From contig NZ_JABMCF010000040.1 in NCBI RefSeq assembly GCF_013359815.1, positions 1-64,000 on the forward strand: a stretch of 64,000 bases of DNA, given 5' to 3'. Under the pieces are notes generated by a model. It was not told where the DNA came from, ran no database searches, and was given only the letters and a program-made list of their open reading frames with translations. This DNA comes from Curtobacterium flaccumfaciens. GTDB lineage: Bacteria; Actinomycetota; Actinomycetes; Actinomycetales; Microbacteriaceae. Of the stretch, positions 21,466 to 39,535 are shown piece by piece (the first letter of the stretch is position 1; every line of letters starts with the position of its first letter). A program made the translations under genes and the position numbers.

Positions 21466-22398
21466 ATGCAGGTCGTCGGAGTCGAACAGTTCGGAGGGCC
21501 CGAGGCCCTCGCCGTCCACGAGGTGCCGGAGCCGCACGCCGGTGCGGGGTCCGTGCGGATCCGGGTGCAGGCGTTCGCCGTGAACCCGACCGACACGGGG
21601 GTGCGTGCCGGGCAGCGGGACAGCTCGCAGGCCTCGCCGCCGTACGTGCCGGGGATGGACGCCGCCGGCGTCATCGACGAGGTCGGGCCCGACGTCACCG
21701 GATGGCAGGTCGGCGAAGAGGTCATGGCGATGGCATTGCCGCTCAGCGCCCACGGTGGCGCCTATGTGCAGGAGCTCGTCGCGCCGGTGGGGTCGTTCAC
21801 GCGGATCCCTCGTGGGACGTCTCTTCCGCTCGCCTCCACGGTGCCGATGAACGGGCTGACGGCGTTGCAGATCCTGTCGCACGCCTCCCTCGCGCCGGGG
21901 CAGACGCTCGCCGTGACCGGGGCCGCTGGGCTGCTCGGGAACTACGTGGTGCAGCTTGCGAAGGCCGCCGGGCTGACGGTGATCGCGGATGCTGCTCCGG
22001 CGGACGAGGCACTCGTCCGGTCGCTCGGGCCGGACCACGTGGTGCCGCGAGGTGCTTCCTTCGCCTCCGCTGTCCGGGAGCTCGTGCCGGACGGGGTCGA
22101 TGCGCTCGCCGATGCTGCCGTGCAGCGCGACGAGGTCGTGGACGCCGTTCGCGACGGGGGAGTGTTCTTCGATGTGCGGGGGTGGCAGGGCAACGGGGCT
22201 CGGGGGATCGAGTTCGTGCAGATCATGGTGTTCTCGGAGTACCGGTCGTTCGACAAGCTCGAGCAGCTGCGGCATGCGGTGGAGAGTGGGACGTTGACTC
22301 CGCGGGTCGCCGAGGTGCTGCCGGCTGCGCGGGCTGCGGAGGCGCATGAGCGGTTGGAGGCCGGGGGGACGCGGGGGCGGTTCGTACTGACGTGGTGA
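21466..22398 (+). CDS. Zinc-free quinone oxidoreductase, MDR superfamily
   Basis: The 310-residue NADPH-dependent oxidoreductase has an N-terminal GroES-like domain and a Rossmann domain with glycine motif TGAAGLLGNY and a later GGVFFDVRG strand. It lacks the zinc-ligand cysteine cluster, as in quinone reductases. ATG 21466 follows AGGAGG closely. Its last 60 percent is repeated almost exactly at 29709-30266, so the two copies flank the 7.3-kb segment with the Sdp-like genes. A hairpin terminator follows. Confidence 0.88.
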   Translation: MQVVGVEQFGGPEALAVHEVPEPHAGAGSVRIRVQAFAVNPTDTGVRAGQRDSSQASPPYVPGMDAAGVIDEVGPDVTGWQVGEEVMAMALPLSAHGGAYVQELVAPVGSFTRIPRGTSLPLASTVPMNGLTALQILSHASLAPGQTLAVTGAAGLLGNYVVQLAKAAGLTVIADAAPADEALVRSLGPDHVVPRGASFASAVRELVPDGVDALADAAVQRDEVVDAVRDGGVFFDVRGWQGNGARGIEFVQIMVFSEYRSFDKLEQLRHAVESGTLTPRVAEVLPAARAAEAHERLEAGGTRGRFVLTW

Positions 22399-22512: not shown

Positions 22513-22554
22513 GCTCTCGTGCACAGCACAGTGGCTGTGTCGGGAGGGACAAAC

Positions 22555-23268
22555 TTGAACATCCAGAAGCTCCACCGTCCACGGGTTGCCGTGCTCGGAT
22601 TCGTGACTGCCATCCTGCTGCTCGCGGCATCGCTCGTCGGTTCGCCAGCCGTGGCGACGGCCGTCGAACCGGTGGCAGCTGCGAGCAGCACGTCGGGCCT
22701 CTCAGAACAGGACCTGCTGCTCGTCGACGGGGCGCTGTTCGGTGTCGGCCCCGTTGCGAAGCAGCTCGGCACGAGCATCGAACCAGTCTTCTCCGGCGAT
22801 GACTTGGAGCGAGTCACGGCCTACGCGCGTGAATCCCGTGAAGGACTCGTCGCATCGAACCCCGATGCGGTCGAGCGCGCTGTGGCCAACATTCGGTCGG
22901 GATCGGTGAACTCCGTTGCGAAGGGCTTCGAAGAGCTCGGGGGAGCCTTCAACTCTTACATCAGCGAGACGTACACCGAGGAAGAGTTGAACGCAGCCAA
23001 GGAGGAGTACAGCTCGACGCAGGCCGTACCGATGTGTGGAGCAGTCGCCGCCTGTGTCGCAGCAGTTGCCTTCGCCGTCTACGCAGCAGCTGCCGTTCAC
23101 AATGCTGCGGTCATCACAGCGGCCGCTGCGGTCCTCGTGTCCGTGTATGCGTGGTGCGGAGCCTGGACCGGTTGCGGGCGCAGCGGCCAAGCAACCGGGA
23201 ATGACCGGGTGAAGCAGGAGAAGTTCCTGGCCAACGCAACCCGCGTCGGTCAGACGCTGCCCGCGTGA
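22555..23268 (+). CDS. SdpC-family antimicrobial peptide (cannibalism toxin) precursor
   Basis: The 237-residue secreted precursor resembles Bacillus SdpC. An N-terminal signal peptide (hydrophobic core about residues 11-30, then ATAVEP) precedes an alpha-helical pro-region. A hydrophobic segment then opens with C161-x5-C167, in MCGAVAACVAAVAF, and is rich in Ala and Val. In Bacillus SDP the mature 42-residue toxin likewise starts at a C-x5-C disulfide (CGLYAVCVAAG) and is pore-forming. Two further cysteines occur in WCGAWTGCGRSG. The TTG start at 22555 is preferred because GGGAGGGA stands just before it; GTG 22519 is the alternative. Genes for SdpA- and SdpB-like proteins follow with overlaps. 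Confidence 0.8.
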   Translation: MNIQKLHRPRVAVLGFVTAILLLAASLVGSPAVATAVEPVAAASSTSGLSEQDLLLVDGALFGVGPVAKQLGTSIEPVFSGDDLERVTAYARESREGLVASNPDAVERAVANIRSGSVNSVAKGFEELGGAFNSYISETYTEEELNAAKEEYSSTQAVPMCGAVAACVAAVAFAVYAAAAVHNAAVITAAAAVLVSVYAWCGAWTGCGRSGQATGNDRVKQEKFLANATRVGQTLPA

Positions 23269-23831
23269 GTCTGAAGCTCGCCGAGACGACCGTGGTCACG
23301 GTGGCGGCTCTTGCCGTGGCCACGGTCGCCTTCGCATCACTCCCGATCAGTACCCACGCGTCGGGATTCGTTGCTGACGGTCTGCGTGCTGTCAGCGAGA
23401 TCACGCCACAAGGATGGGGCTTCTTCACCCGTGACCCGCGCTCTCCGATCACGCAAGCCCGCGTCCGCACCGCGGAGGGAGAGTGGAAGACCGTGACTCG
23501 GGGTCCGAACGCGACCCTGCGGAACGCGTTCGGGTTCAACCGGTCGTCGCGACTCGACGAGTACGACGTGTCCCAGGTCACCGGGTCTCGCGACATCGAT
23601 GGACTCTGGTCGGACTGCACCGGAAACTCGATCGCGGAGTGCGCCCAGCGTGCTGCGTCAGAGCGCGGTGTTCAGGAGTGGACGGCCGAAGGCTACGACC
23701 TCCGGCTCTGCGGGGAGGTCCTCTTGCTCGCCGTGGATCCGGTGCCGATCGACTTCGCGGGCCTGCAGTACGACGCCTCGACGAAGGCCATCCGCGCGAC
23801 CGTCCGATGCGATGCTCTGGAGGATCAGTGA
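23265..23831 (+). CDS. SdpA-family maturation protein
   Basis: The 188-residue protein has an N-terminal transmembrane anchor (about residues 8-28) and an outside domain containing PQGWGFFTRDPRSP, close to the PQGW(A/G)FFT hallmark of SdpA proteins. Three or four cysteines occur in the second half. In Bacillus, SdpA and SdpB are both needed to turn pro-SdpC into active toxin. It overlaps sdpC (GTGA) and sdpB (TGATG), so the three genes are translated together. Confidence 0.8.
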   Translation: MSLKLAETTVVTVAALAVATVAFASLPISTHASGFVADGLRAVSEITPQGWGFFTRDPRSPITQARVRTAEGEWKTVTRGPNATLRNAFGFNRSSRLDEYDVSQVTGSRDIDGLWSDCTGNSIAECAQRAASERGVQEWTAEGYDLRLCGEVLLLAVDPVPIDFAGLQYDASTKAIRATVRCDALEDQ

Positions 23832-24811
23832 TGACCTCTGCCGCCACACTGCAACGTCACAACGGTGGCGGAGTGGGCGGGCGAGCGTCGTTCGAGCGGT
23901 ACGTGTCGGCCGTCAGCCCGTTCACGCCGGTACTCGGGCTCGTGCGATCAGCGATCGCAGCAGCCGCCTTGCTCACGCTCGTGTTCAGCCCGACCGATCA
24001 GCTCTTCTTCCGGAGCTCGACGTTCCCGACCGGTGCGAACTGCGGGAACAGCACGTCGTGGATGTCCTTGTTCTGCATCGGGTCCTCCAGCGGGCATCTC
24101 GAACTGACGAAGTGGGTCGCGGTGTCCGTACTCGCCATCGTCGTCACCGGACTGTTGCCGGCGATCACTGCCCTTCCACACTGGTGGGTGACGTGGAGCC
24201 TCATGACCTCGAGTACGGCCGTCGACGGCGGCGAACACCTCGCCGCGAACCTGGCACTCATCCTCGTTCCGCTCGTACTGCTCGACCGCCGTCGCTGGCA
24301 CTGGACCCCTGACAGGCGGTACGTGGGCCGTTCTTCGTGGGTCGCCGTGATCGGGTACACCACCCTCGGGCTCTGGACTCTCCAGATGATGGGCGTGTAC
24401 TTCCAGGCCAGCGTGGCGAAGTTCTCCGTCCTCGAGTGGTCGGACGGGACGGCGCTCTGGTACTGGATGCAGAACCCGGTCTTCGCCCCGGCCGGAGCCG
24501 TCGGAGACCTTGTTCGGAACGCGCTCCAGTGGTTACCACTCACCGTCATCGCGACGTACGGCACGCTCGCGCTGCAGCTCGCTCTGGTCGGCGCTGTCTT
24601 CATGCCGCGCAGGCCTCGGCATCTGCTCCTGGGCCTCGCTGTCGCGTTCCACCTGGCGATCGCCGTGCTGATGGGCCTGTGGAGCTTCTCGATGATCATG
24701 ATCGCGGCAGACCTGCTGTTGCTCCTCCGCCCCCACGAATCGGAGAGCGTCGCTCGTGCCCTTCACATGGGCTCACGAAACGAACGGCAGGTGAACCATG
24801 TCAGCGCCTGA
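23831..24811 (+). CDS. SdpB-family HTTM membrane protein
   Basis: The 326-residue polytopic protein has about seven transmembrane helices and the horizontally transferred transmembrane (HTTM) domain related to vitamin K-dependent gamma-carboxylases, the family of SdpB. Recognisable parts are the first helix after SPFTPVLGLVRS, the DGGEHLAANL segment and the QASVAKFSVLEWSDGTALWY loop. It would act with SdpA in toxin maturation. It starts in overlap with sdpA and ends overlapping the next gene by 14 bases. Confidence 0.82.
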   Translation: MTSAATLQRHNGGGVGGRASFERYVSAVSPFTPVLGLVRSAIAAAALLTLVFSPTDQLFFRSSTFPTGANCGNSTSWMSLFCIGSSSGHLELTKWVAVSVLAIVVTGLLPAITALPHWWVTWSLMTSSTAVDGGEHLAANLALILVPLVLLDRRRWHWTPDRRYVGRSSWVAVIGYTTLGLWTLQMMGVYFQASVAKFSVLEWSDGTALWYWMQNPVFAPAGAVGDLVRNALQWLPLTVIATYGTLALQLALVGAVFMPRRPRHLLLGLAVAFHLAIAVLMGLWSFSMIMIAADLLLLLRPHESESVARALHMGSRNERQVNHVSA

Positions 24812-27575: not shown

Positions 27576-27620
27576 GTGCGCTCGTCTCGTTGTCGTGAGC
27601 CGCGCTGCTAGCGTCGCAGC

Positions 27621-27941
27621 ATGGCGGATGAGGGGCTGCACGACGAGCTACGGGCTTTCGTCGACGAACGCGACTGGGGTCAGTTCCACAGTCAGGAGAA
27701 CCTATCGAAGAGCATCTCGATCGAGGCGGCGGAGCTGCTCGAGTGCTTCCAGTGGAAAGCCGAGGCCGACGAGTCGCGCGTGCGGAGCGAGCTTGCTGAC
27801 GTACTCACGTACTGCTTCCTCCTCGCGGACCGCCTCGGCACGTCGCCGGAGACCCTGATCCGCGAAAAGCTCGCGATCACGAAGGCCAAGTACCCGGTGG
27901 AACGATCGCGAGGGCGGAGCACGAAGTATGACCAGCTTTGA
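27621..27941 (+). CDS. MazG-like nucleotide pyrophosphohydrolase
   Basis: The 106-residue all-alpha protein is of the MazG/dCTPase type. It has the metal-binding pattern EAAELLECF (ExxE of helix 2) and ELADVLTYC (ExxD of helix 3), which hold Mg2+ for cleaving nucleoside triphosphates to monophosphates. It is short, as single-domain members are. It overlaps the following GIY-YIG/DUF2075 gene by 14 bases, so the two act as one unit. Removal of modified or phage nucleotides is possible but not shown. Confidence 0.85.
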   Translation: MADEGLHDELRAFVDERDWGQFHSQENLSKSISIEAAELLECFQWKAEADESRVRSELADVLTYCFLLADRLGTSPETLIREKLAITKAKYPVERSRGRSTKYDQL

Positions 27942-29649
27942 CATCGAGCGGCTCCCGTTCACCCGAAAGCACCTGCGGTTATGGCAAGCGGATGATCGTC
28001 GCTTCATCAACTGGCCAGTGGTCTACATCCTCGACGATGGGAAGCGGGCGTACGTCGGCGAGACCCTGAACACCGCCGCGCGGATGCGGCAGCACCTCGA
28101 GTCAGCCGAGCGCAAGACGTTGAAGTCGGTTCGGCTCGTGCTCGACGACACGTTCAACAAGTCAGTATGCCTCGACCTCGAGTCGCAGCTCATCGCCTTG
28201 CTTGCGGCGGACGAGAAGTTCACGGTGCTGAACAGCAACAAGGGAATCGTCGATGCCGATTACTTCGACCGGCCAAGGTACCGCGACACCTTCAAACAGA
28301 TATTCGATGCACTCCGCGAGCAGCAGGTATTTACTCGCAGTCTGCCCGAGATCGAGAACCGTGAGCTCTTCAAGCTCTCACCCTTCAAGGCCTTGAACCG
28401 TGACCAGGCGATCGCGTTGGAGGACATCCTCGAGGGCCTGTTCGACGACTGGGAAGACGATGCAGCGACTCCGATCACCGTGCAAGGGGACCCCGGCACC
28501 GGCAAGACGATCGTCGCTGTCTACCTGCTCAAGCTCCTCCGAGACCTCGCCCAGGGCAAGGGGCTCGACGATCTCGAGAGCGACGCGCTCTTCTCCGACT
28601 TCTTCACCGAGGACAACCACCGTCTTCTCGATGGTTCGCGGCTCGGGCTCGTTGTTCCGCAGCAGGCGTTGCGGGCGTCCCTCAAGCGCGTGTTCGCGAA
28701 GACCCCCGGTCTTGACAAGACGATGGTGCTGACTCCGTTCGAGGTGGGGAAGAGCGATGAGCCCTGGGATCTGCTCGTCGTCGATGAATCTCATCGCCTC
28801 AACCACCGCGCGAACCAAGCGTCCGGCGTGCAGAACAAGAGTTTCGGGGAGATCAACGAGAAGTTGTTCGGCGCCGACGCCGATCACCTGACACAATTGG
28901 ACTGGATCCGGAAGCAGAGCCGGCACCAGATCTTCCTGATCGATTCGCATCAGAGCGTGCGTCCCGCCGACCTTCCGCAAGCGACGCAGAAGGCGCTCAT
29001 CGATGAGAGTGAAGCCGCGGATCGCCGCTACCGACTCTTCACGCAGATGCGCGTGCAGGGTGGCGCGGACTACGTGTCCTTCGCACGAGCGCTCCTGGGC
29101 GACAAACCGCGCGAGCGTGAGGACTTCGGCACCTACGATGTGCGGTTCTTCGACGACCTCGGCGAGATGCACGACGCAATCCGAGCCCGCGACGCTCAAG
29201 TCGGGCTCTCCCGTCTCGTTGCCGGGTACGCCTGGGAATGGAGAAGCAAGAACGACTCCGCCGCGATCGACATCGAAATCGACGGTCGCAAGCTGCAGTG
29301 GAACCAGACCCAGACCGACTGGATTACCTCACCGGGGGCGGTCGAGCAGGTCGGATCGATCCACACCGTGCAGGGGTACGACCTCAACTATGCGGGCGTC
29401 GTCATCGGGCCGGACCTGCGGTTCGACCAAGAGACGCAGCGTGTTGTCTTCAACCGATCGAACTACTTCGACAAGAAGGGTATGGAGAACAACCCGCGGC
29501 TCGGGATCGAGTACTCGGATGAGGACGTCCTCCGCTTCGTGACGAACGTGTACTCGGTCCTGATGACGCGCGGGGTACTCGGCACCTACCTGTACGTGGT
29601 TGACCCGGCGCTGCGGGAGCACTTGCGCGCGATCATCCAGGCGGGCTGA
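27928..29649 (+). CDS. GIY-YIG nuclease fused to DUF2075 helicase domain
   Basis: The 573-residue protein has an N-terminal GIY-YIG-like domain (about 30-100; VVYILDDGKRAYVGET...RMRQHL, with the catalytic Tyr/Arg pattern), then a DUF2075 P-loop NTPase related to SF1 helicases and Schlafen proteins. Walker A is GDPGTGKTI (about 188-196), Walker B LLVVDESHRL (about 280-289) and motif VGSIHTVQGYDLNYAGVV near the C-terminus. Such proteins are thought to cut and translocate nucleic acid and recur in defence islands. It is coupled to the MazG-like gene. The function is inferred from the domains. Confidence 0.85.
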   Translation: MTSFDIERLPFTRKHLRLWQADDRRFINWPVVYILDDGKRAYVGETLNTAARMRQHLESAERKTLKSVRLVLDDTFNKSVCLDLESQLIALLAADEKFTVLNSNKGIVDADYFDRPRYRDTFKQIFDALREQQVFTRSLPEIENRELFKLSPFKALNRDQAIALEDILEGLFDDWEDDAATPITVQGDPGTGKTIVAVYLLKLLRDLAQGKGLDDLESDALFSDFFTEDNHRLLDGSRLGLVVPQQALRASLKRVFAKTPGLDKTMVLTPFEVGKSDEPWDLLVVDESHRLNHRANQASGVQNKSFGEINEKLFGADADHLTQLDWIRKQSRHQIFLIDSHQSVRPADLPQATQKALIDESEAADRRYRLFTQMRVQGGADYVSFARALLGDKPREREDFGTYDVRFFDDLGEMHDAIRARDAQVGLSRLVAGYAWEWRSKNDSAAIDIEIDGRKLQWNQTQTDWITSPGAVEQVGSIHTVQGYDLNYAGVVIGPDLRFDQETQRVVFNRSNYFDKKGMENNPRLGIEYSDEDVLRFVTNVYSVLMTRGVLGTYLYVVDPALREHLRAIIQAG

Positions 29650-29708: not shown

Positions 29709-30266
29709 ACCGTGCCCATGAACGGGCTGACGGCGTTGCAGATCCTGTCGCACGCTTCGCTCGCGCCGGGGCAGACGCTCGCCGTGACCGGGGCGGCTTG
29801 GCTGCTCGGGAACTACGTTGTGCAGCTGGCGAATGCCGCCGGGCTGACGGTGATCGCGGATGCTGCTCCGGCCGATGAAGCGCTTGTGCGGTCGCTCGGG
29901 CCGGACCACGTGGTGCCGCGAGGTGCTTCCTTCGCCTCCGCTGTCCGGGAGCTCGTGCCGGACGGGGTCGATGCGCTCGCCGACGCTGCCGTGCAGCGCG
30001 ACGAGGTCGTCGACGCCGTTCGGGACGGGGGAGTGTTCTTCGACGTGCGGGGGTGGCAGGGCAACGGGGCTCGGGCGATCGAGTTCGTGCAGGTGATGGT
30101 GTTCTCGGAGTACCGGTCGTTCGACAAGCTCGAGCAGCTGCGGCATGCGGTGGAGAGTGGGACGTTGACGCCGCGGGTCGCCGAGGTGTTGCCGGCTGCT
30201 CGGGCTGTGGAGGCGCATGAGCGGTTGGAGGCTGGGGGGACGCCGGGGCGGTTTGTGCTGACGTAG
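29709..30266 (+). pseudogene. 5'-truncated copy of the quinone oxidoreductase gene
   Basis: This segment repeats bases about 21838-22395 of the intact gene, with about 97 percent identity at protein level over 184 codons and the same stop region. It lacks the first 125 codons (the GroES-like domain). The changes include Gly to Trp in the glycine motif (TGAAWLLG), which would block NADPH binding, so it is not functional. Similarity begins just before the ATGAACGGGCTGAC stretch. It forms the right-hand direct repeat around the Sdp/MazG segment. Confidence 0.9.
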
Positions 30267-30433: not shown

Positions 30434-31534
30434 TCAGCCAAGCAGCCCTGCGAGGTGCCGTCCGATTGCGGCGCCCAGCGGAATCGGCACTGCATTTCCA
30501 ATCTGGCGCGCAATCTCGATCTTTGAACCCATGAAGAGGTAGTCGTCTGGGAACCCTTGGAGCGTCGCGGCCTCGTAGTGCGTGAGCGCTCGGTCCTCGA
30601 CCGGATGAAGGTATCGTCCCTTCTCCGGCTTGAAGAACTCCGTGCGCACGGTGACCGCCGGTTTGTCCCAGTGCAATCGACCCATGACGTCAGCCGATCC
30701 TGATGTGTGCTTCTTCCAGCAGTCAGGCAAGAGCTCGTACGGGATGTCGAAACGGTTGCCCTTTTCGGGGATGTGGGCGAACCGTTCGCGCGAGAGGTCG
30801 GTGTAGTAGCGGGTGACATGCAGTTCGGCGGCGCGATAGGGCCCAGAAACCGCGCTTCCGTGGACAACGCGAGCGCGATTGGAGGGGAGGTCGATCGTGC
30901 TGACGGCGGCAGTCATTCCACGCTGTTTGAAGGCCTGTCCGACGGTGACATGCTGTTGCGCGCGCCCAGGGCCGTGTGTGGGCTCAGGGAAACCGGGCGC
31001 GACCTGATCGTCGCGCCACCCAATGATCACGGTGCGTTTCCGCGCCTGCGCCGCACCGTAGTCCGCTGAGTTGAGGACGCGCCAGTCGAAGGAGTAGTTG
31101 GATAGCATCCCCGCTTCGGAGGTTTCGCGGCGAAAGTCCTCAAACTGGGGAGACTTGGTGAACGCGGCGACGTTCTCAACCACGAAGTACTTGGGTTGGG
31201 CTCGCTTGACTGTCTCCGCGTATTGCTTCCAGAGGAAGTTGCGCACGTCCTCGGCGTCCTGCTTCCCGAGAGTGGAAAAGCCCTGACACGGCGGGCCCCC
31301 GAGGACAACCTCGACGGAGGGGATGTCCTCCTGTGCGAGCCAGTCCTCGATGGGACCGGCGAAGACGAGGTCGTCGCCGTGATTAGACGCGTACGTGGCT
31401 GCCGCTGCGGTGTCCATCTCGACCGCGCGGACCGTCGAGAACCGGTCCGAACCTTTGCGGAAGCCTTCGCTGAGGCCTCCGGCTCCTGCGAAGAGGTCGA
31501 GCGTGCGGATGGGGGCGAGCTGCGTAGTGGCCAT
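30434..31534 (-). CDS. dcm: DNA (cytosine-5) methyltransferase
   Basis: The 366-residue C5-methyltransferase has motif I DLFAGAGGLSEGF, motif IV GGPPCQGFSTLG with the catalytic cysteine, motif VI FVVENV, motif VIII QARKRTVII and the C-terminal motif X QIGNAVPIPLG. The target-recognition region lies between motifs VIII and IX and its site cannot be read from sequence. It follows the MORC-sigma gene by 32 bases on the same strand and would protect host DNA from the nuclease parts of the cassette. Confidence 0.95.
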   Translation of the reverse strand: MATTQLAPIRTLDLFAGAGGLSEGFRKGSDRFSTVRAVEMDTAAAATYASNHGDDLVFAGPIEDWLAQEDIPSVEVVLGGPPCQGFSTLGKQDAEDVRNFLWKQYAETVKRAQPKYFVVENVAAFTKSPQFEDFRRETSEAGMLSNYSFDWRVLNSADYGAAQARKRTVIIGWRDDQVAPGFPEPTHGPGRAQQHVTVGQAFKQRGMTAAVSTIDLPSNRARVVHGSAVSGPYRAAELHVTRYYTDLSRERFAHIPEKGNRFDIPYELLPDCWKKHTSGSADVMGRLHWDKPAVTVRTEFFKPEKGRYLHPVEDRALTHYEAATLQGFPDDYLFMGSKIEIARQIGNAVPIPLGAAIGRHLAGLLG

Positions 31535-31566
31535 GTCGGATCAAACCTACGGTACGAGCGCGCGGT

Positions 31567-34500
31567 TCAAGCGGGCGCGGCCGGCGCGCCGGCGGGACCA
31601 GGGTTCATCTCTGCGCGCTCCTCTGCGGGGCTCGGCTGACACCTCCGGAAGGCGTCCGCATGGCGCGGCTCCATCAGGACCCGGCAGGCGACACCAAACG
31701 GAGTCCGCTCAAGCCGGAGCGCGAGGTCGTGGATCGAGGCACCGGTAGTGAGCGCTGAATCGATGAGCTGTGCGTCCACGTCCGAGTATCCGGCACCGTG
31801 ACGGGCGGGACGGCCAGAAGTCGGCGTTGACGTTTCGACGCCGAAGAGTGTCTGGCTGAGCGAGGCCAGGACAGTGCCACGAGCGACGTTCAGGCGGCGA
31901 GCTATGTCATCCGGGTGCTGGCCACTCAGGAAGGCAGCCGCCGTGTCCGGGGGGCTCGCAAGGAGATCGACTCTTGGCTGCGCCGATCTGTTGGCGGCGG
32001 GGTCCGCGATTATCGAAGGCACGGCCAGCCGATTCCGGCGCTTTTTCCGGCCATACTGCCTAACCTGCTCCTCGACGGTCAGAGACCTAGCTCTAGGGAC
32101 CGAAGTGACAGGCCTATCTTCACGGACAGTGGTGTCGTCGATGAAGTGATGATCCGTGAGCATTGCCTGCCGACGCGGACCACGCATCTTCTCCAGCGCC
32201 TTCTTTTCCAGTTGTCGAATTCGCTCTCGGGTGACCCCGAACTCGACACCAATCGCATCAAGTGTCTGACGCTCGCCTCCGTCGAGTCCGAAGCGGAGCA
32301 CGAGGACCCGTGCCTCCTTCCAGTCAAGGGTATTGAGGACTCGAACGAGGTCCCGTCGGAACAACAGTGCCTCGAGGACGTCGCTTGCGGAATCAACCGC
32401 GTCGTCTACGAGGTGGTCACCGAAGGGCTCGTCCCTTCGCAGTTCTGGGTTGTACCAAGGCGCGTCAAGTGACCACACATGTGTGAGCCGGTCTGCCGCG
32501 TCGAGCCGTTCGATGTCAGAGCGGTCAATTTCGGACTGCCGGGCGAGCTCGTCGAGCGGTACGCCATCCGGGTAGAGCGGTTCGAGCGCGGCGCGGGCAC
32601 CGGACAGTCTCCGTAGTGACTCCATCAGATGAACTGGCAAGCGTATGGCGCGTGCTTTGTCGTCGAGCGCCCGCGAGATAGCCTGCCGGATCCACCAGGT
32701 GGCGTACGTTGAAAACTTCGTCCCCTGCGCGTAGTCGAACTTCTCGACCGCGTGGATGAGCCCCATGTTGCCTTCCTGGATCAGGTCGAGTGACTCCATG
32801 TCGCGACCTGCGTAGCGCCTCGCGACGGAGACGACCAGGCGCAAGTTCGCGTTGACGAATCGTGCCTTGGCGTGCTGACCAGCGTGAGCGATCTCTCGAA
32901 GTTCGCGTAGAAGCGACCTGCGCTGTTCCTGAGCGCTATCCGAGGCGAGATGCTCTTCGGCGAGCAACCCGGCCTCGATACGACGAGCGAGCTCGACCTC
33001 TTCGGCGGCGCTCAGCAATTGCGCTCTACCGATTCCCCAAAGGTACTGCTTCATCGGGTCCGCAGAGTGTGGGATGTCTCGATTGCGCTCGACGAAGCCA
33101 GGGGCGGGGCGCTCAATCGAGAAGCCGCCCTCGTCGACTCGCGTGGGTATCGGAACCTCGTCGCCGACCTGCCACCCGTCGAGATCGAGCTCGTCATCGG
33201 CAGGCGGTCGGGCTGCCCGGGTCGCCGTTTCGCGGGTTGCGTCGTAAGCGTGTTCGTCGATCTGCTGGAACGTGGCGGCGGCGAGAACAGCATGGATACG
33301 CTCGATCTGCTCAATCGTGCTCTGCTGCAAATGACCGCGCTCCAGCTTGTCTTGTAGCTGTAACACGATCGAGGTTTTGAAGAACGCGGCGTCGCCGCCG
33401 TGGACACCCTGGAGCTGCTCCCGGTAACCCTCGTTCAACCAGACCGTCGCTGCCGCGTGCTCCAGTTCGAAGAGCCGGCCGCGGCCCAGAGGCTTCCACA
33501 AGACGCGGAGGTTGTTGCCATCGTCACGGAATCCGAACTCCTCGTCCATCGCGCCGATGACGGCTTGGGGAAGCCCCTCCGCAATGCGCGCAACCGGCTT
33601 TGGGCCGCGCTCGCGTTTGCTGCCGAGCCGGAACACCTCCTTCGCCGCGGTCAGGAAGGACCGGAAACCCTGTCCGTCTTCTGCGACAGCTCGTTCTACC
33701 GCGTGGACACCGTCTGCCGTGAGCACGACGCCGTGCTTTTCGGGATTGATGCGAACGGCGCCAAGCGCCTCGACAGCCACGTCGACGGCGACCCGCGCAA
33801 GCTGCAGTTCGGCCAAGTTGCCGGGCAGCAAGTTCAACCAGCCGCCAGCTTGCTGTAGCCGATCGTTACGGTAGACATACAAACCCTGCCACTCCGCTCG
33901 CGGGCGCCCCAGCATTTTGGCGCTCGGACCCTGGTTCGCGGGCTGCATGATGTGGCAGGTGAAGCGCACCTCCGCACCTCCCGGGGTCGTTCCGGTCAGA
34001 TTGAGCGGGTAACCGGCGGCACCAGACGTGAAATCGAAGGGGTCAACGGGGGTTACTTTGACGGGGACGCCGTCGCCCGTTCGTGTGTCGAACTGCTGCA
34101 GGACGATCGTGATGTCACCTCGCGAGATGATCCTGTGGAACGTCAGCCCGAGGTCGTGTCCCAGGCTTGTGAACACCTCGTCGAGCCAGCGCCGCCGATC
34201 GACCTCCACATCGCCGGTGAAGACCGAATGCAGGTGGTCCCATTCCACCACAGTGCCGCTTTCGACACGGGCGAAGCCGCCAGCTCCCTTCGTGAAACCG
34301 CGCTGGGCGTCAGCGTCGCTCAGGACTTCGCCCTCGAATCGTCCGCGCGCGAGACGTATCGCTCGCGTCGGCTCATAGCCACACCTGGAGTAAACAGTCA
34401 GCCGGTCAGCCTGACTGAATGACGCTGCTTTCAAGCCGACGCCGAAATGACCGTGCTCGGCCGCTCCGTACTTGCGACGGACGCCGAGGCGCATCGCTGA

Positions 34501-34740
34501 CGCGAGCTGCGTTGCGGACATCCCTGCGCCGTCGTCATGCATCCGGATCCCGATGAGCTCCTCGTTGCGTGTGATGAATCGCGCGAGGAACTTGGTCGCG
34601 CCCTTGTCGATGGAGTTGTCGATCAAATCGGCCATCGCAGTGGCCAGAGAATGCCCGGCTCCGATCGCGCTGAGGATCGAAGGATCCGGGGCGAGGTCGA
34701 CGACATGCGCGGCCTCGGCGTGTTCTTCGGTCGACTCCAT
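31567..34740 (-). CDS. MORC/GHKL ATPase fused to a sigma-70 factor
   Basis: This single open frame of 1057 residues joins two unrelated machines. Residues 1-450 form a MORC-like GHKL ATPase: N-box MADLIDNSID (about 36-45), G1 HDDGAGM (68-74), GHFGVGLKAAS (97-107). Residues about 560-860 form an RpoD-like sigma factor. Region 1.2 is QYLWGIGRAQLLSAAEEVEL, region 2 includes RFVNANLRLVVSVARRY and KFSTYATWWIRQAISRAL (about 675), and region 4 contains EFGVTRERIRQLEKKALEKM (about 828). The tail (880-1057) has two further HTH-like stretches. No stop or frameshift separates the parts. The start at 34740 (MESTEEHAE) is chosen by homology to other GHKL N-termini; an upstream ATG at 34797 is possible. 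It may load DNA-damage or defence ATPase action on RNA polymerase (speculative). Confidence 0.88.
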   Translation of the reverse strand: MESTEEHAEAAHVVDLAPDPSILSAIGAGHSLATAMADLIDNSIDKGATKFLARFITRNEELIGIRMHDDGAGMSATQLASAMRLGVRRKYGAAEHGHFGVGLKAASFSQADRLTVYSRCGYEPTRAIRLARGRFEGEVLSDADAQRGFTKGAGGFARVESGTVVEWDHLHSVFTGDVEVDRRRWLDEVFTSLGHDLGLTFHRIISRGDITIVLQQFDTRTGDGVPVKVTPVDPFDFTSGAAGYPLNLTGTTPGGAEVRFTCHIMQPANQGPSAKMLGRPRAEWQGLYVYRNDRLQQAGGWLNLLPGNLAELQLARVAVDVAVEALGAVRINPEKHGVVLTADGVHAVERAVAEDGQGFRSFLTAAKEVFRLGSKRERGPKPVARIAEGLPQAVIGAMDEEFGFRDDGNNLRVLWKPLGRGRLFELEHAAATVWLNEGYREQLQGVHGGDAAFFKTSIVLQLQDKLERGHLQQSTIEQIERIHAVLAAATFQQIDEHAYDATRETATRAARPPADDELDLDGWQVGDEVPIPTRVDEGGFSIERPAPGFVERNRDIPHSADPMKQYLWGIGRAQLLSAAEEVELARRIEAGLLAEEHLASDSAQEQRRSLLRELREIAHAGQHAKARFVNANLRLVVSVARRYAGRDMESLDLIQEGNMGLIHAVEKFDYAQGTKFSTYATWWIRQAISRALDDKARAIRLPVHLMESLRRLSGARAALEPLYPDGVPLDELARQSEIDRSDIERLDAADRLTHVWSLDAPWYNPELRRDEPFGDHLVDDAVDSASDVLEALLFRRDLVRVLNTLDWKEARVLVLRFGLDGGERQTLDAIGVEFGVTRERIRQLEKKALEKMRGPRRQAMLTDHHFIDDTTVREDRPVTSVPRARSLTVEEQVRQYGRKKRRNRLAVPSIIADPAANRSAQPRVDLLASPPDTAAAFLSGQHPDDIARRLNVARGTVLASLSQTLFGVETSTPTSGRPARHGAGYSDVDAQLIDSALTTGASIHDLALRLERTPFGVACRVLMEPRHADAFRRCQPSPAEERAEMNPGPAGAPAAPA

Positions 34741-34840
34741 GACTGGGGACGCTACAACCCTCCTCGGACACTCAACGACCGGGATCCCTGGAATCAAGTA
34801 CCGGCGTTCTCCCCAAAACGGGGGGGAGCAGACAGTCCCC

Positions 34841-34869
34841 TTGACACGGTTAAGCTCTGCGGGTGCGCT
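34841..34869 (+). promoter_or_regulatory. Possible promoter of the PF14390-Z1 pair
   Basis: A perfect TTGACA (34841-34846) is followed after 17 bases by TGCGCT (34864-34869), a poor -10. It lies in the gap between the divergent sigma-fusion gene and the PF14390 gene. The poor -10 could reflect dependence on a special sigma factor, perhaps the neighbouring fusion protein, but this is only an idea. Confidence 0.3.
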
Positions 34870-34942
34870 GCCATGGTGTGCTCGCTACTTGCGCGACGCA
34901 TCGGGACGCAGAAGTCGCACGGCGGACGAACAAGGGGGATGT

Positions 34943-35935
34943 ATGGTCGGCGGTGCTACCGAGGATGTTGTTCAGCATCTGACGCCGGAGACAGTGGACG
35001 TGTACTTTCGGGCGGCGGCGCCAGCTCGTTTCCGATTGAGCGCGAAGATCGACGCCTTTCTCGACATCGACCCCCAGGCTCAGCGAATCAGCCTGCACGT
35101 GCCGGCGCGAGGTGAGGCGCCTGACGTTTCTGCCTTTGAGCGGATCACTGTCGCCAAGACGATCTTGGCCGGCCATTCGAGGGAGTGGTTTCGCATCGAC
35201 ATCGACGCAGCAGGCATGCGGTACGAGGCGTACACGCTCGCGGAATCCGTCGTCGACCAGATGCAGTACGGGGCGACGCCGCGCCACGCGCTGTCCGAGA
35301 CCCTCGAGGCGCTGAAAGACCTCCTCACCAGGCGCCGCCGCCTGACGGACGAGAAGGAGGCCGGCCTCCTCGGCGAACTGCTCCTGCTGCGGCACGTGAT
35401 TGACGTGATCGGCGAGGACGCCGCCATCGCCACCTGGTTGGGGCCCGAGTCCGGGGAGCACGACTTCGGCTTCGAGGACTTCGAGGCGGAGGTGAAGACC
35501 ACCAGGTCCGAGGCGCGTGTGCACGTGATCGGCTCCGAGACTCAGTTGATGCCCTCGCCCGGCCGCCCGCTTCACCTAATCTCCATCCAGCTCACCCTCG
35601 CGGGGCACGGCCAGGACGGCTTCACCCTTCCGCAGCTCGTCGACGAGGTGCGTTCGCGCGTTGACCATAGCGCCCGTGCCCTTGACGACCGCCTCGAATC
35701 GGCTGGCTGGCAGGACGAGGCGCGCGACCTCTACACCCTGCGTTTCCAGTACCGCAGCCGCCCGAGGGCCTTTCTCGTCGACGAACTCTTCCCTGCGATC
35801 ACGCGCCCGCGCCTGGACGAAGTTGTGCCTCAGCCGGTGCATGTGGGTAGCGTCTCGTATCGCCTTGACGTCACCGATTTTCCCTTCACCGATGCACCCG
35901 CACCGTTGAACGGCTTCTGCGAGGGAGAGGAATGA
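34943..35935 (+). CDS. PD-(D/E)XK motif protein, PF14390 (DUF4420) family
   Basis: The 330-residue protein has the nuclease-fold core GEHDFGFEDFEAEVKTTRSE (about 172-191): Asp, then Glu-x-Lys on the next strand, as in restriction endonucleases. Members of this family repeatedly occur next to Z1-domain proteins, GHKL ATPases and cytosine methyltransferases. ATG 34943 follows AAGGGGG. Its stop overlaps the Z1 gene start (ATGA), so the two are made together. It is the likely DNA-cleaving subunit or a partner of it. Confidence 0.82.
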   Translation: MVGGATEDVVQHLTPETVDVYFRAAAPARFRLSAKIDAFLDIDPQAQRISLHVPARGEAPDVSAFERITVAKTILAGHSREWFRIDIDAAGMRYEAYTLAESVVDQMQYGATPRHALSETLEALKDLLTRRRRLTDEKEAGLLGELLLLRHVIDVIGEDAAIATWLGPESGEHDFGFEDFEAEVKTTRSEARVHVIGSETQLMPSPGRPLHLISIQLTLAGHGQDGFTLPQLVDEVRSRVDHSARALDDRLESAGWQDEARDLYTLRFQYRSRPRAFLVDELFPAITRPRLDEVVPQPVHVGSVSYRLDVTDFPFTDAPAPLNGFCEGEE

Positions 35936-38900
35936 GCACCGTCGAAACGGTCACGCTCGCGAGTGCGATCCAGTCCGCATTCAACGCAATGGAGAAGACG
36001 GGGCCGAAGGCGCTGCTCCCACGCGTGAATCTGGACGTCGAGGAAGCTGGCCACGACGCCGTCGATGAGGCCACGGTGGTCTCCTTCATAGTCGAGGCCG
36101 GCGTAAACGACCCCGCGCGGTACGCGGCACATATCGCGCTGGCTCAATGGGACGTGGCGGAGGGAGTCGAGTGGCCGGACGGCGCCACGATCGGCTCCTC
36201 CGCCCGACGCCAGCGGGTCTACGACCTGCTCAAGTTGGGCGGTGCCGCCCGCACCCGCCTCAATGAGGTGTTCCCGAGCCAGGCGCTCGTCGACTCCGTC
36301 ATCACGAGCGACCGGTGGGACCCCTGGTACACGACGGCCCGCCAGGAACGTGACTTCTACTGGAAGGCGTACAAGGGCGTCCTCGAAGGCAAGAAGTGGA
36401 AGCCCGAGGCGATTGCCGAGGTCGACGCGTCTGCTTCGAAGATCGTCAGTCGGCTCGCAGACCCCGCCGCCGAAGAGGCCTATTCTTCGCGCGGCCTCGT
36501 CGTCGGCTACGTGCAGAGCGGCAAGACTGCGAACTTCACCGGCATGATCGCGAAGTCCATCGACGCCGGCTACCGGCTCGTCATCGTGCTGACAGGCACG
36601 ATCGAGCTCCTGCGCGGGCAGACGCAACGGCGCCTGGACATGGAGCTGATCGGCGAGGAGAACATCCTCGGCGGCCACGACAAGAACGACGTCAATGCCG
36701 TCCGCGACGTCGACTACGCCGGCAACGGCGACACGGACTGGCTCGCCGGCAAATTCCTCCGGCACGGCATCGATCTCAACGCGCGCCGGGACATCCCCTC
36801 AATCAAACGCCTGACCACGGCCAGCGGCGACTACAAGGCGTTGAAGCAAGGTCTGGACACGCTCGACTTCCGCTCGGCGGCCGAGCTCGCCGATATGAGC
36901 AAGCCTGTGAACCACCCCGACAACCTGTTCGGCACCAATGTGCGCATCGCCGTGGTGAAGAAGAACAAGTCCGTGCTCACCAAGCTCCTCACCGATCTGA
37001 AGAACGTCAGGACGCGCCTCGACGAGATCCCCGTGCTCCTGATCGACGACGAGGCGGATCAGGCCTCGGTTAACACCAAGAACAACACGAAGAAGACCCG
37101 GCGCACTGACGAGGAGAAGGACAGGACCGCGATCAACAAGCTGATCTCGGACATTCTGGACACCATGCCGCGGGCGCAGTACGTGGGCTACACGGCAACC
37201 CCGTTCGCCAACGTGTTCGTCGAGCCGGATGACGAGATCGACGTCTTCCCGCGCGATTTCATCGTGAGGCTTAAGGCCTCCGCTGATTACATGGGCGGCA
37301 CGAGGTTTCACGACCTCGAACCCCTGCAGCCTGGCGAGGAGGCGACCGCTGCGAACTCCAACGAGGAGGCGCACGTGCGTGATCTCGTCGCCGCACCGGG
37401 AACAGCGGCCGAGGTCACCGAGATTCGGCAGGCTCTCGACGCCTTCGTTCTCACTGGCGCGATCAAACTGTGGCGGCAGACGCAGGATCCGGACCTCAAA
37501 TTCCGGCACCACACGATGCTCGTGCACGAGGACGTGACGCAGGCTGCTCACAGCACTCTGGCGACGCTCATCCGACAAGTGTGGGCGGAAGCTGCCTATC
37601 GCTCGCCCGAGGCGAAGGCCCGCCTTCGCGAGCTGTACGAGACCGACTTCGCCCCAGTGCACCGGGCGCGCGGTGGCTGGGGCCTCCGGCTCCCTCTGGC
37701 GTTCGACGACCTCGCCGAGTACATCGGTGAAGCTGTAGCCAAGGTCATGTCGGACAACAACCCCGTAGTCGTCGTCAACGGCTCCAAGGAGAGCGACTAC
37801 AACGAGATGGACTTCACGACCAAGCACTACTGGCGTGTCATGGTCGGCGGCACCAAGCTCAGCCGTGGCTTCACAGTCGAGGGCCTCACCATCACCTACT
37901 TCAAGCGCCGCGCCATGGCCGCGGACACCTTCATGCAGATGGGTCGCTGGTTCGGCTACCGGCCCGGCTACCGCGACCTCGTTCGGCTGTACATCGCGCG
38001 TGACGTCACGGACTCTCGAGGCAAGAGCTACGACCTCTATGAGGCCTTCACCGCGATGGTGCAGGACGAGGAAGCATTCCGCGAGCAGCTCGACGAGTTC
38101 TCAGAGGTGGACCCTGAAACCGGGCGACCGGCGATGCGACCGATCGACGTCCCGCCTCTCGTGTTCCAGCAGCTCCCGTGGCTTCGGCCGACCTCTGGCA
38201 ACAAGATGTACAACGCCGAACTCGCTATCGAGGGAAGCCCCGGGAAGACCCGGGACTTCCCCATGCAGGCCAAGAGAGGAACCGGAGCAGCCAACGCCCG
38301 CCACTTCGAACTGGTCACCCCGTGGCTCGACGAGCGGGGCCAAACGGTGGACCTCCTGACGGACTTGGGGGGCAGCTACAAGGCCCGGGTGGCAATCCTC
38401 CCCGCGGCCGAAGTCGCGGACGTGCTCGACAGGTTCACCTGGGCGGACGGCTACTCGTTCAAGCCCACCGTCCTTTTCATCGAACGAGCCGTCGAGGCCG
38501 GACAGCTCGACGATTTTGCCCTCGTCTTTCCCGAGCTGTCGATTGACGGTGAGCAGCTCCACGACGTCACGGGACGAGACGTCCAGATCCTCCAGCGCGC
38601 GAGGCGTGATGACCGCCGCGGATTCTCCGGAAGCTCCGCTCGCCAGCGTCACGCCGTCGAGTTCATCGCCGGGGCATCCAAGGAAGGGCCCACCGGACCG
38701 GAAGCCAACACGTTGCGACGAGAGAAGGGGCGCGGAGCGATCCTTTTCACTTTCGCCGACGACGTGATCGGACCTGACGGCTCGGCCCTCAGCCGGAAGA
38801 CGTCCGAAATCACGGGGGCTGTCGACGCGACGGATGTGGCGACTCTCTTCTCGATCGTAATGCCGACATCGACACAGTCGCTGAGCCGGGTCGGGTTCCG

Positions 38901-38949
38901 TGCGAAGCGTTCCGATGTCGACTACGGGCAAATCATCGACGCCGACTGA
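35932..38949 (+). CDS. Z1-domain helicase/endonuclease
   Basis: The 1005-residue SF2-type protein carries a Z1 domain. Walker A is GYVQSGKTANF (about 192-202), Walker B LLIDDEADQAS (about 367-377) and motif III YVGYTATPFANV (about 416-427). A helicase C-terminal part follows with GGTKLSRGFTVEGLT and MGRWFGYRPGYRD. Z1 proteins are thought to be the ATP-driven DNA-processing subunit of restriction-like systems that use a separate PD-(D/E)XK partner, here the PF14390 protein. It overlaps that gene by four bases and is followed directly by a decayed vsr gene. Confidence 0.9.
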   Translation: MSTVETVTLASAIQSAFNAMEKTGPKALLPRVNLDVEEAGHDAVDEATVVSFIVEAGVNDPARYAAHIALAQWDVAEGVEWPDGATIGSSARRQRVYDLLKLGGAARTRLNEVFPSQALVDSVITSDRWDPWYTTARQERDFYWKAYKGVLEGKKWKPEAIAEVDASASKIVSRLADPAAEEAYSSRGLVVGYVQSGKTANFTGMIAKSIDAGYRLVIVLTGTIELLRGQTQRRLDMELIGEENILGGHDKNDVNAVRDVDYAGNGDTDWLAGKFLRHGIDLNARRDIPSIKRLTTASGDYKALKQGLDTLDFRSAAELADMSKPVNHPDNLFGTNVRIAVVKKNKSVLTKLLTDLKNVRTRLDEIPVLLIDDEADQASVNTKNNTKKTRRTDEEKDRTAINKLISDILDTMPRAQYVGYTATPFANVFVEPDDEIDVFPRDFIVRLKASADYMGGTRFHDLEPLQPGEEATAANSNEEAHVRDLVAAPGTAAEVTEIRQALDAFVLTGAIKLWRQTQDPDLKFRHHTMLVHEDVTQAAHSTLATLIRQVWAEAAYRSPEAKARLRELYETDFAPVHRARGGWGLRLPLAFDDLAEYIGEAVAKVMSDNNPVVVVNGSKESDYNEMDFTTKHYWRVMVGGTKLSRGFTVEGLTITYFKRRAMAADTFMQMGRWFGYRPGYRDLVRLYIARDVTDSRGKSYDLYEAFTAMVQDEEAFREQLDEFSEVDPETGRPAMRPIDVPPLVFQQLPWLRPTSGNKMYNAELAIEGSPGKTRDFPMQAKRGTGAANARHFELVTPWLDERGQTVDLLTDLGGSYKARVAILPAAEVADVLDRFTWADGYSFKPTVLFIERAVEAGQLDDFALVFPELSIDGEQLHDVTGRDVQILQRARRDDRRGFSGSSARQRHAVEFIAGASKEGPTGPEANTLRREKGRGAILFTFADDVIGPDGSALSRKTSEITGAVDATDVATLFSIVMPTSTQSLSRVGFRAKRSDVDYGQIIDAD

Positions 38950-38974
38950 CTTCGGAAAAATCCACGAGTTACGC

Positions 38975-39228
38975 GTGGAGAAAGGCTGTCTTGGGCGACG
39001 ACGGACGGCACACGCCGTTCGATACAGGCCAACAAGGGCCGTGACACCAAACCGGAACTCGCCGCCCCGCGGATCCTGCATGCGGCGGGCCTGCACTACC
39101 GGGGAAACTAACCCTTCCTGCCCCGACGCACGGCCGAGATCGTCTTTACGCGAGCGAAAGTCGCCGTTTTCATCGATGGGTGCTTCTGGCGCGGGTGTCT
39201 GGCCCATTACCAACCCCCATCAACGAAC
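38975..39228 (+). pseudogene. vsr: Decayed vsr (very short patch repair) endonuclease gene
   Basis: Right after the Z1 stop, one frame reads LSWATTDGTRRSIQANKGRD then TKPELAAPRILHAAGLHYR, the hallmark N-terminus of Vsr. It meets a TAA at 39109-39111 and continues in the same frame as RRTAEIVFTRAKVAVFIDG, then CFWRGCLAHY (the usual motif is CFWHGC). The probable GTG start (38975) is one base out of frame, consistent with a small deletion near 38985. Similarity stops at about 39228, so the C-terminal third is missing. Vsr nicks T:G mismatches made by deamination at C5-methylated sites, so its loss removes repair linked to the dcm gene. Confidence 0.85.
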
Positions 39229-39535
39229 CGCGGATCTCAGGTACCGAGAACCTGAAGTCGATCCGCGCCCGAGCCACTCCGATCGACCGCAGGAAGTCCC
39301 ACGGCGAATCACCGAGCAGCCGAGCGGTGTTGGGGGAGACATCGGCCACGACCGACAGTCCCGAGGATGCAGCAGCCGACACGATCGCGGTCGCAGCTGC
39401 CCGGGCTCCCGCAGGAGAGTCTTCCGGGACGTGCAAAGAGGTGAACGCGAGCGTCGCACCTGCGGCCGCGGCGGCCTCGAAGGTCGGGCCAGCCAGCGGA
39501 CCGTGCGCCAGGTACGCGCTCGCGCCCAGGCGCAT
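39228..39535 (-). pseudogene. mupG: Truncated mupG (DUF871 6-phospho-MurNAc hydrolase)
   Basis: The first about 100 residues of a MupG/DUF871 TIM-barrel protein are present (start MRLGASAYLAHG, then FTSLHVPED, and LGVARARIDFRFS-like strand written as IGVARARIDFRFSVPEIR). Family members have about 350-380 residues. Similarity ends where the vsr remnant begins, so the island junction cut this gene and the rest is absent from the window. Its start overlaps the PTS gene stop (TGATG), showing it was the last gene of the MurNAc operon. Confidence 0.82.

Follow-up and report, generated by a model that had tools for sequence, protein, structure and literature searches.

A MazG-like gene overlapping a GIY-YIG/Schlafen-type helicase gene: a candidate two-gene defence unit in a Curtobacterium chromosomal hotspot

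Results

A candidate accessory defence unit

The first 64,000 nucleotides of Curtobacterium flaccumfaciens contig NZ_JABMCF010000040.1 (assembly GCF_013359815.1; the window) carry two overlapping open reading frames (ORFs), the first encoding a 106-residue MazG-like nucleoside triphosphate (NTP) pyrophosphohydrolase and the second a 573-residue protein in which a candidate GIY-YIG nuclease is joined to a superfamily 1 (SF1) helicase of Schlafen group 3 (SLFN-g3). The pairing of the two genes, their overlap, the conserved motifs of both products, the mobility of the pair and its genomic context together suggest that it is an accessory two-gene anti-phage defence unit, a reading to which we assign a probability of roughly 0.55. 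A sequence-only reading of the same DNA had proposed such a module, in which nucleotide clean-up or depletion is coupled to a nuclease-translocase; the 14-base overlap that it described is borne out by the ORF coordinates (Table 1).

The pairing was assessed in 80 related loci, all bearing actinobacterial names and representing the best 80 of 246 confirmed relatives from genome contigs (several come from the same genomes as the G-numbered set described below, and the 10-kb flanks are not complete in all). A MazG gene lies upstream and on the same strand in 78 of the 80, L034 and L094 having none, and in 77 it overlaps the start of the helicase match by 1-110 nt (the tblastn match start being taken as the helicase start), with an overlap of exactly 14 nt in 68. 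In L098 the MazG gene is 1 kb away, beside a helicase frame interrupted by a stop. Among 199 Microbacteriaceae genomes, for which the two match lists were compared by hand at differing thresholds (E 1e-80 for the helicase, 1e-6 for MazG), the helicase was matched in 51 and MazG in 52; 49 genomes have both, two the helicase alone (G478, G529), three MazG alone (G610, and G548 and G558 with partial matches) and 145 neither (Fisher p 2.4e-40). Within Curtobacterium (66 genomes) the helicase is found in 19 genomes, MazG in 18 of these same 19 and neither gene in 47, the sole helicase-only genome (G018) having a broken copy that lacks the first 31 residues as well as MazG. The pairing of the two genes is far beyond chance. 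The correlation of MazG and helicase distances (r 0.75 over 73 loci, best permutation 0.15) was not used to argue for interaction, because it is expected for any two linked genes.

Sequences upstream of MazG point to a dedicated promoter. In 58 lined-up start regions (the window and 57 of the 80 loci, those with a start codon at the position of the 106-residue form and 60 nt of upstream DNA) the motif TAnnnT stands at -12 (50 regions) or -13 (8 regions) from the MazG start in every case, while any other position has the motif in at most two; it is preceded, one base 5', by TG in 47. The remaining upstream DNA is variable and 57 of the 58 sequences are distinct. Of the 23 loci outside this set two lack MazG, and in most a comparable box is visible by eye ahead of a start codon that is shifted. 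With a -10-like element at a fixed distance before MazG, the pair looks like one co-transcribed, overlapping accessory unit with its own promoter. Transcription would be expected to begin approximately at the MazG start codon, so that the MazG-helicase transcript is probably leaderless, and the near-constancy of the overlap points to synthesis of both proteins in a fixed proportion and perhaps to a complex.

The MazG-like protein

The 106-residue protein matches PF12643 with an E-value of 1.9e-20 (73.3 bits, above the curated cut-off of 27), and its matches in the PDB include an archaeal pyrophosphatase and the mouse and human deoxycytidine triphosphate (dCTP) pyrophosphatases (mouse, E 6.6e-13). 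Its AlphaFold2 (AF2) model has a pLDDT of 88, and the best 15 rows of a Foldseek search with this model give query TM scores of 0.72-0.78, with 4qgp and 6sqw at 0.75-0.78 by query or target (6sqw 0.73 by target). The metal-binding ExxE/ExxD motifs (E35, E38, E57, D60) are invariant in 43 aligned sequences (the window and 42 of the 78), as are W19, W45 and Y64, while a nearly invariant C-terminal KYDxL tail is encoded where the gene overlaps the start of its partner.

The pocket of human DCTPP1, as listed in PMC4491611, consists of His38, Trp47, Glu63, Glu66, Trp73, Glu95, Asp98 and Tyr102, His38 bonding the cytosine base; the substrates named in PMC7162842 are dCTP and C5-modified dCTPs. Seven of the eight pocket residues are matched in the window protein (W19, E35, E38, W45, E57, D60, Y64). 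The eighth, His38, corresponds to a leucine (L10) in a mouse-protein alignment extended two residues leftward by hand, and because this histidine is not conserved we call the protein DCTPP1-like rather than DCTPP1. Relative to human and mouse DCTPP1 (RS21-C6) and A. fulgidus AF1178, the fold, the ExxE/ExxD motifs and the equivalents of W47, W73 and Y102 are alike, whereas the window protein is without the base-bonding histidine, has a loop shorter by about 10 residues and is encoded in an operon with a nuclease-helicase. With most of the pocket kept and His38 missing, a pyrimidine deoxynucleoside triphosphate (dNTP) is a plausible substrate, with dCTP or a 5-modified dCTP as our best guess.

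The GIY-YIG/SLFN-g3 helicase protein

Residues 183-559 of the 573-residue protein match PF09848 (SLFN-g3_helicase, which we take to be the former DUF2075) over profile positions 4-354 of 354 with an E-value of 3.6e-65. The Walker A, Walker B and other helicase motif residues are invariant across 55 proteins (the window and 54 of the other 77; L044, L082 and L098 were excluded for stops in the matched stretch). The structure model of the protein has a pLDDT of 88, and in a fold search its helicase part matched UvrD with a Z-score of 20.3 and SLFN11 with a Z-score of 18.8. An SF1 helicase core is thereby shared with Schlafen group 3 (SLFN11-14), whereas the window protein carries a candidate GIY-YIG nuclease domain, and no Pfam match to the Schlafen nuclease (RNase) core domain was found at E 0.01.

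The N-terminal domain scores 20.6 bits against PF01541 and that of the relative L152 20.7, both below the cut-off of 22.6, while four relatives score above it (23.6, 25.7, 27.4 and 23.9). Y33, Y42, G44, R52, H56 and E85 are invariant in 55 sequences, and the residues that we presume to be catalytic in GIY-YIG nucleases (Tyr, Tyr-x-Gly, Arg, Glu) are present as Y33, Y42-V-G44, R52 and E85, V43 being variable. The predicted secondary structure follows the order strand (31-36), strand (40-46), helix (49-58), strand (67-72) and helix (78-95). The above-cut-off relatives, the invariant residues and this strand-strand-helix-strand-helix order at 31-95 support a candidate GIY-YIG nuclease at the N-terminus. 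No weight was given to the fact that the fold matches include no GIY-YIG chain, since the helicase fills that list and makes it uninformative on this point. MazG-linked helicases are of at least two kinds, and the nuclease-translocase pairing put forward by the sequence-only reading applies only to the kind with GIY-YIG as its N-terminus. The SLFN-g3 helicase at L171:916-3411 (minus strand) carries a fused Peptidase_S24 (LexA-like) domain at its C-terminus, and MazG immediately precedes it.

Table 1. Features of the gene pair and of its surroundings in the window
Feature	Coordinates	Strand	Basis or remark
MazG-like all-alpha NTP pyrophosphohydrolase, dCTP-pyrophosphatase-like (106 residues)	27621-27941	+	PF12643, PDB match, AF2/Foldseek, motifs
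GIY-YIG + Schlafen-group-3 SF1 helicase (573 residues)	27928-29649	+	Pfam, alignment, model, fold search
Candidate GIY-YIG nuclease domain (residues 29-95)	28012-28212	+	Pfam, alignment, model
SLFN-g3 helicase domain (residues 183-559)	28474-29604	+	Pfam, alignment; Walker A G187-T194, D286-E287-x-H289
Gene overlap, 14 nt	27928-27941	+	identical length in 68 of 78 MazG-bearing loci
Extended -10-like element, TGC-TAGCGT	27606-27614	+	ends 6 nt 5' of the MazG start codon
Dehydrogenase gene, one marker of the hotspot edge (context, outside the module)	21466-22398	+	Pfam, genus comparison
Phosphotransferase system (PTS) EIIBC gene, opposite hotspot marker (context)	39535-41043	-	genus comparison
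Truncated second copy of a zinc-dependent dehydrogenase gene, 95% identical to the first	29709-30264	+	directly 3' of the pair; hotspot scar

A mobile pair in a chromosomal hotspot

The sequence-only reading had placed the pair within an island, and base composition agrees: G+C is 0.62-0.68 in the 2-kb intervals between roughly 19 and 40 kb and mostly 0.70-0.74 in the surroundings, with a second dip (0.67-0.68) at 8-12 kb. The stretch between the dehydrogenase and PTS EIIBC genes varies in length among genomes of the genus. The pair lies within 35 kb of a hotspot marker on the same contig in at least 14 of its 19 Curtobacterium carriers (G000, G033, G056, G038, G020, G039, G005, G063, G030, G032, G040, G043, G046 and G017). 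In G064, G060 and G018 it lies within 8 kb of a homologue of the PD-(D/E)XK/RNase H/helicase gene found at 48902-52396 of the window, to the right of the hotspot; in G062 it is near neither a marker nor this homologue, and in G021 it is at a contig end. The DNA of the pair is 96% identical to the window in G033 and 94% in G056, while the 48902-52396 gene is 86% identical in both; in G007, the other genome of the window's species, that gene is 95% identical and the pair is absent. A pair more similar than this gene to the right of the hotspot, together with its absence from G007, speaks for movement of the pair between strains. The pair is accessory, patchy and mostly bound to the hotspot.

The hotspot delimited by the two markers appears as a Curtobacterium chromosomal site with exchangeable defence-type cargo. 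A scan of four chosen pair-less hotspot regions covered 10 of the 56 genes called there, long ones for the most part: G007 has a type IIG restriction-methylase, G008 MzaC/MzaD-like genes, G009 NERD-UvrD and DUF262-type matches and G034 a helicase-type match.

Neighbouring genes

Genes around the pair, called with our own script, were searched against PADLOC models at 1e-10. In 17 Curtobacterium genomes, 43 families were matched by the 119 genes lying up to 5 kb from the pair; in 28 other loci, the 126 genes lying up to 4 kb from it matched 155 families. The control, 119 genes from other parts of 11 of these 17 genomes (119 of 208 genes, from 11 of 20 control stretches), matched 9. The best represented of the 43 families trace to one NERD-UvrD gene, found in 12 of the 17 Curtobacterium loci; the 25 families listed out of the 155 take in restriction enzymes of types IV and I as well as AbiEii and methylases. 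In G033 and G056, the two nearest relatives of the window pair, a McrC-like gene ends 59 nt before MazG; it is preceded in G033 by a McrB-like gene (AAA_5 with a weak Mrr_N match), and in G056 the McrB-like gene was called in pieces. A shorter McrC-like relative is present in G064.

Several neighbours were considered as further components of the unit. The NERD-UvrD gene (L115:6228-8339 and relatives, the NERD domain being confirmed for L115) stands upstream of the pair in divergent orientation at 11 of the 17 Curtobacterium loci, 0.2 to 5.9 kb away. It was rejected as a third component, having no relative in 72 other loci (1e-10), and is kept as a frequent neighbour; a NERD domain occurs in 3 of the 126 neighbours from the 28 other loci. 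The adjoining MZA-like cluster (30434-38949) was likewise rejected as a larger system embracing the pair, relatives of its Z1 protein occurring in 5 of the 80 other loci and of its cytosine-5 methylase in 11 of the 80 (12 of 81 with the window). Pfam placed Vsr near the pair in 6 of the 119 neighbours, one presumed Vsr gene being NUDIX, and no claim is made for it. A 316-residue protein with no Pfam match (L119:7738-8688 and relatives) is encoded directly 3' of the pair on the same strand in 6 of the 17 Curtobacterium loci, and upstream of it in L113.

The MZA-like cluster itself comprises genes at 30434-31534 (-), 31567-34740 (-), 34943-35935 (+) and 35932-38949 (+). A MORC-type ATPase (MzaB-like) and a sigma-70 factor (MzaA-like) are combined in one 1,057-residue protein, and the other products are a cytosine-5 methylase, a MzaD-like PD-(D/E)XK protein and a MzaC-like Z1 protein. 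With Mza scores that fall short of the NCBIfam cut-offs, the cluster counts as a variant; the interval 38949-39535 holds no called gene, and no search aimed at AIPR (MzaE) was made. Elsewhere in the hotspot, positions 22519-24811 (+) hold a SdpC-family toxin-like gene (TIGR04032, 1.5e-8, 34.7 bits, below the cut-off of 99.2), then a SdpA gene (PF17418, 8.4e-18) and then a 326-residue gene with no Pfam match in the SdpB position, likely a killing-factor operon.

Distribution beyond Microbacteriaceae

The helicase is matched in 28 of 396 phylum genomes. Excluding the window's own genome, 16 of the remaining 27 have an adjacent MazG (1.5-kb flank). Nine of the 27 helicases align through the GIY-YIG part, seven of these with MazG (one on the opposite strand); nine of the other 18 have MazG, in seven cases downstream. 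The helicase is also matched in 39 plasmid records, 12 of which match MazG too, in seven within 1.2 kb of the matched stretch. A Lactiplantibacillus plasmid has the pair with a DUF3427 helicase and NUDIX pair directly upstream. In Priestia an MrcB_N-HNH gene overlaps MazG by 4 nt inside a restriction-modification (R-M) cluster, with methylase and HsdS genes on the other side, and in Ligilactobacillus HsdS and N6-methylase genes lie upstream of the pair. In the archaeon Halalkalicoccus MazG and the helicase are 5 bases apart. A looser MazG-helicase pairing extends to Bacillota and to one archaeon. Of 15 annotated plasmid loci with the helicase (L188, unannotated, falls outside this number), seven contain R-M, CRISPR or CBASS-type product names (L102, L104, L105, L106, L185, L186, L187, the CBASS reading at L104 being our own interpretation of the annotation) and eight do not (L101, L103, L108, L183, L184, L189, L191, L192). 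Four phage records and four viral contigs were matched, all but one remotely, and the pair is not regarded as phage cargo.

The sequence-only reading had proposed to count how often the pair recurs beside defence genes, and held that rarity or mostly housekeeping surroundings would speak against a defence role. Recurrence holds for the pair itself, for its mobility, for the excess of PADLOC families, for the McrC-like genes of the two nearest relatives and for about half of the annotated plasmid contexts, but not for any particular neighbour other than the partner gene. As to rarity, the pair is uncommon phylum-wide, and 49 of the 199 Microbacteriaceae genomes have it.

Discussion

Proposed mechanism and the evidence against it

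If the pair is a defence unit, the SF1 motor would load on invading or replicating DNA and move it past the GIY-YIG nuclease, which would cut. The MazG-like enzyme would hydrolyse a pyrimidine dNTP, perhaps dCTP or a 5-modified dCTP, to the deoxynucleoside monophosphate and pyrophosphate, and would thereby starve resynthesis or keep a modified precursor out of DNA.

Several observations weigh against a defence unit of this kind. The neighbour evidence is guilt by association: among 81 loci there is no constant neighbour besides the partner gene, the PADLOC counts are of families, with several models per protein and controls drawn from 11 of the 17 genomes, and control genes also match mad3/mad8, AriA and PD-T4-6-type models. 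Three of the 10 scanned cargo proteins of pair-less hotspots had no match at 1e-5. The TAnnnT motif is not visible by eye before the start in L052 and L091, and a leucine stands in place of the base-bonding His38. Since the helicase is found without MazG in 11 of the 27 phylum genomes with a match, and all but one of the first seven Bacillota plasmid loci have no annotated adjacent MazG, MazG is not always needed. Finally, one unverified phage record holds a close relative accompanied by MazG.

Alternative functions

The two proteins might instead serve house-cleaning or accessory DNA repair, MazG clearing damaged or modified dNTPs and the nuclease-helicase processing damaged DNA, with the defence neighbours reflecting no more than residence in a hotspot. 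DCTPP1 is regarded as a house-cleaning enzyme in PMC7162842, the helicase core resembles those of UvrD and SLFN11, the Peptidase_S24 fusion at L171 hints at damage-responsive control, and in Enterococcus a MazG that has no helicase partner is surrounded by ordinary metabolic genes. Both genes are, however, missing from most Curtobacterium genomes (47 of 66), and the pair has apparently moved between strains and sits with R-M or McrBC genes in several relatives, so that we consider this function unlikely. The R-M and McrBC genes raise another possibility, that the GIY-YIG/SLFN protein acts as an alternative restriction motor for nearby methylases or McrBC. It would fit the position of the pair about 60 nt 3' of the McrC-like gene in G033 and G056, the Ligilactobacillus pair, which comes after genes for HsdS and an N6-methylase in an incomplete gene table that shows no restriction subunit close by, the Priestia pair, adjacent to methylase and HsdS genes in a region where further restriction genes are annotated, and the presence in 12 of 81 loci of a cytosine-5 methylase like that of the window. 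A methylase or McrBC neighbour is nevertheless not constant in the 81 loci, and the nearest methylase in the window is on the other strand and adjoins the MZA-like genes; such a helper role appears improbable to us.

The least probable of the functions weighed here is that of a sensor and effector, in which MazG would sense a dCTP pool altered by phages and restrain or release the nuclease-helicase in toxin-antitoxin style, leading to death or dormancy. The fixed order with the small gene first and an overlap resembles that of toxin-antitoxin operons, and the nearly invariant KYDxL tail coincides with the partner's start, but MazG is downstream or missing in relatives and helicase-only genomes exist.

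A more specific form of the defence reading would have MazG and the SLFN-g3 helicase constitute an unrecognised defence family of bacteria and archaea aimed at cytosine-modified phages, MazG destroying (5-modified) dCTP ahead of its incorporation into DNA and the nuclease-helicase attacking modified DNA. It is raised because McrBC-like, MrcB_N-HNH, type IV and cytosine-5 methylase neighbours occur in several relatives and because the enzyme is dCTPase-like; we think it rather unlikely. If true, precursor and product restriction of modified cytosine would be combined, an arrangement that is to our knowledge new.

Relation to known systems

The pair was not assigned to a system in PADLOC-DB 2.0.0, in which the window MazG had no match and the helicase had weak matches only (AbiO, PDC-S14, PDC-S41, Nhi and mad8). 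Gabija consists of the GajA nuclease and the UvrD-like helicase GajB, and its two-gene logic of nuclease and SF1 helicase is alike; in the window pair, by contrast, nuclease and helicase are fused and the NTP pyrophosphohydrolase is separate, and neither protein matched GajA or GajB at E 0.01. The DUF3427 helicase likewise stands beside an NTP pyrophosphohydrolase, which we take to be NUDIX; that system differs in having a DEAD/ResIII-type helicase with a PLD domain and a pyrophosphohydrolase annotated as (deoxy)nucleoside triphosphate type. MazG is among the nucleotide-modifying domains predicted, not validated, as defensive by DefensePredictor (PMC13092281), and the terms 'DUF2075', 'GIY-YIG' and 'helicase' do not occur in its main text. 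The component families are known, and the pairing is without a prior description that we found; our literature search returned no account of a MazG and GIY-YIG/SLFN-g3 pair, an earlier mention being possible in a 2015 study of nucleotide-centred conflict systems.

In Microbacteriaceae, then, the MazG-like enzyme co-occurs with a nuclease-helicase partner in 49 of the 52 genomes that have it, which makes the pair a compact candidate system. It offers a concrete operon, a predicted promoter, putative catalytic residues and hosts in which to ask whether dNTP hydrolysis serves defence, and it places the Schlafen-type helicase, whose fold is antiviral in animals, in a bacterial operon.

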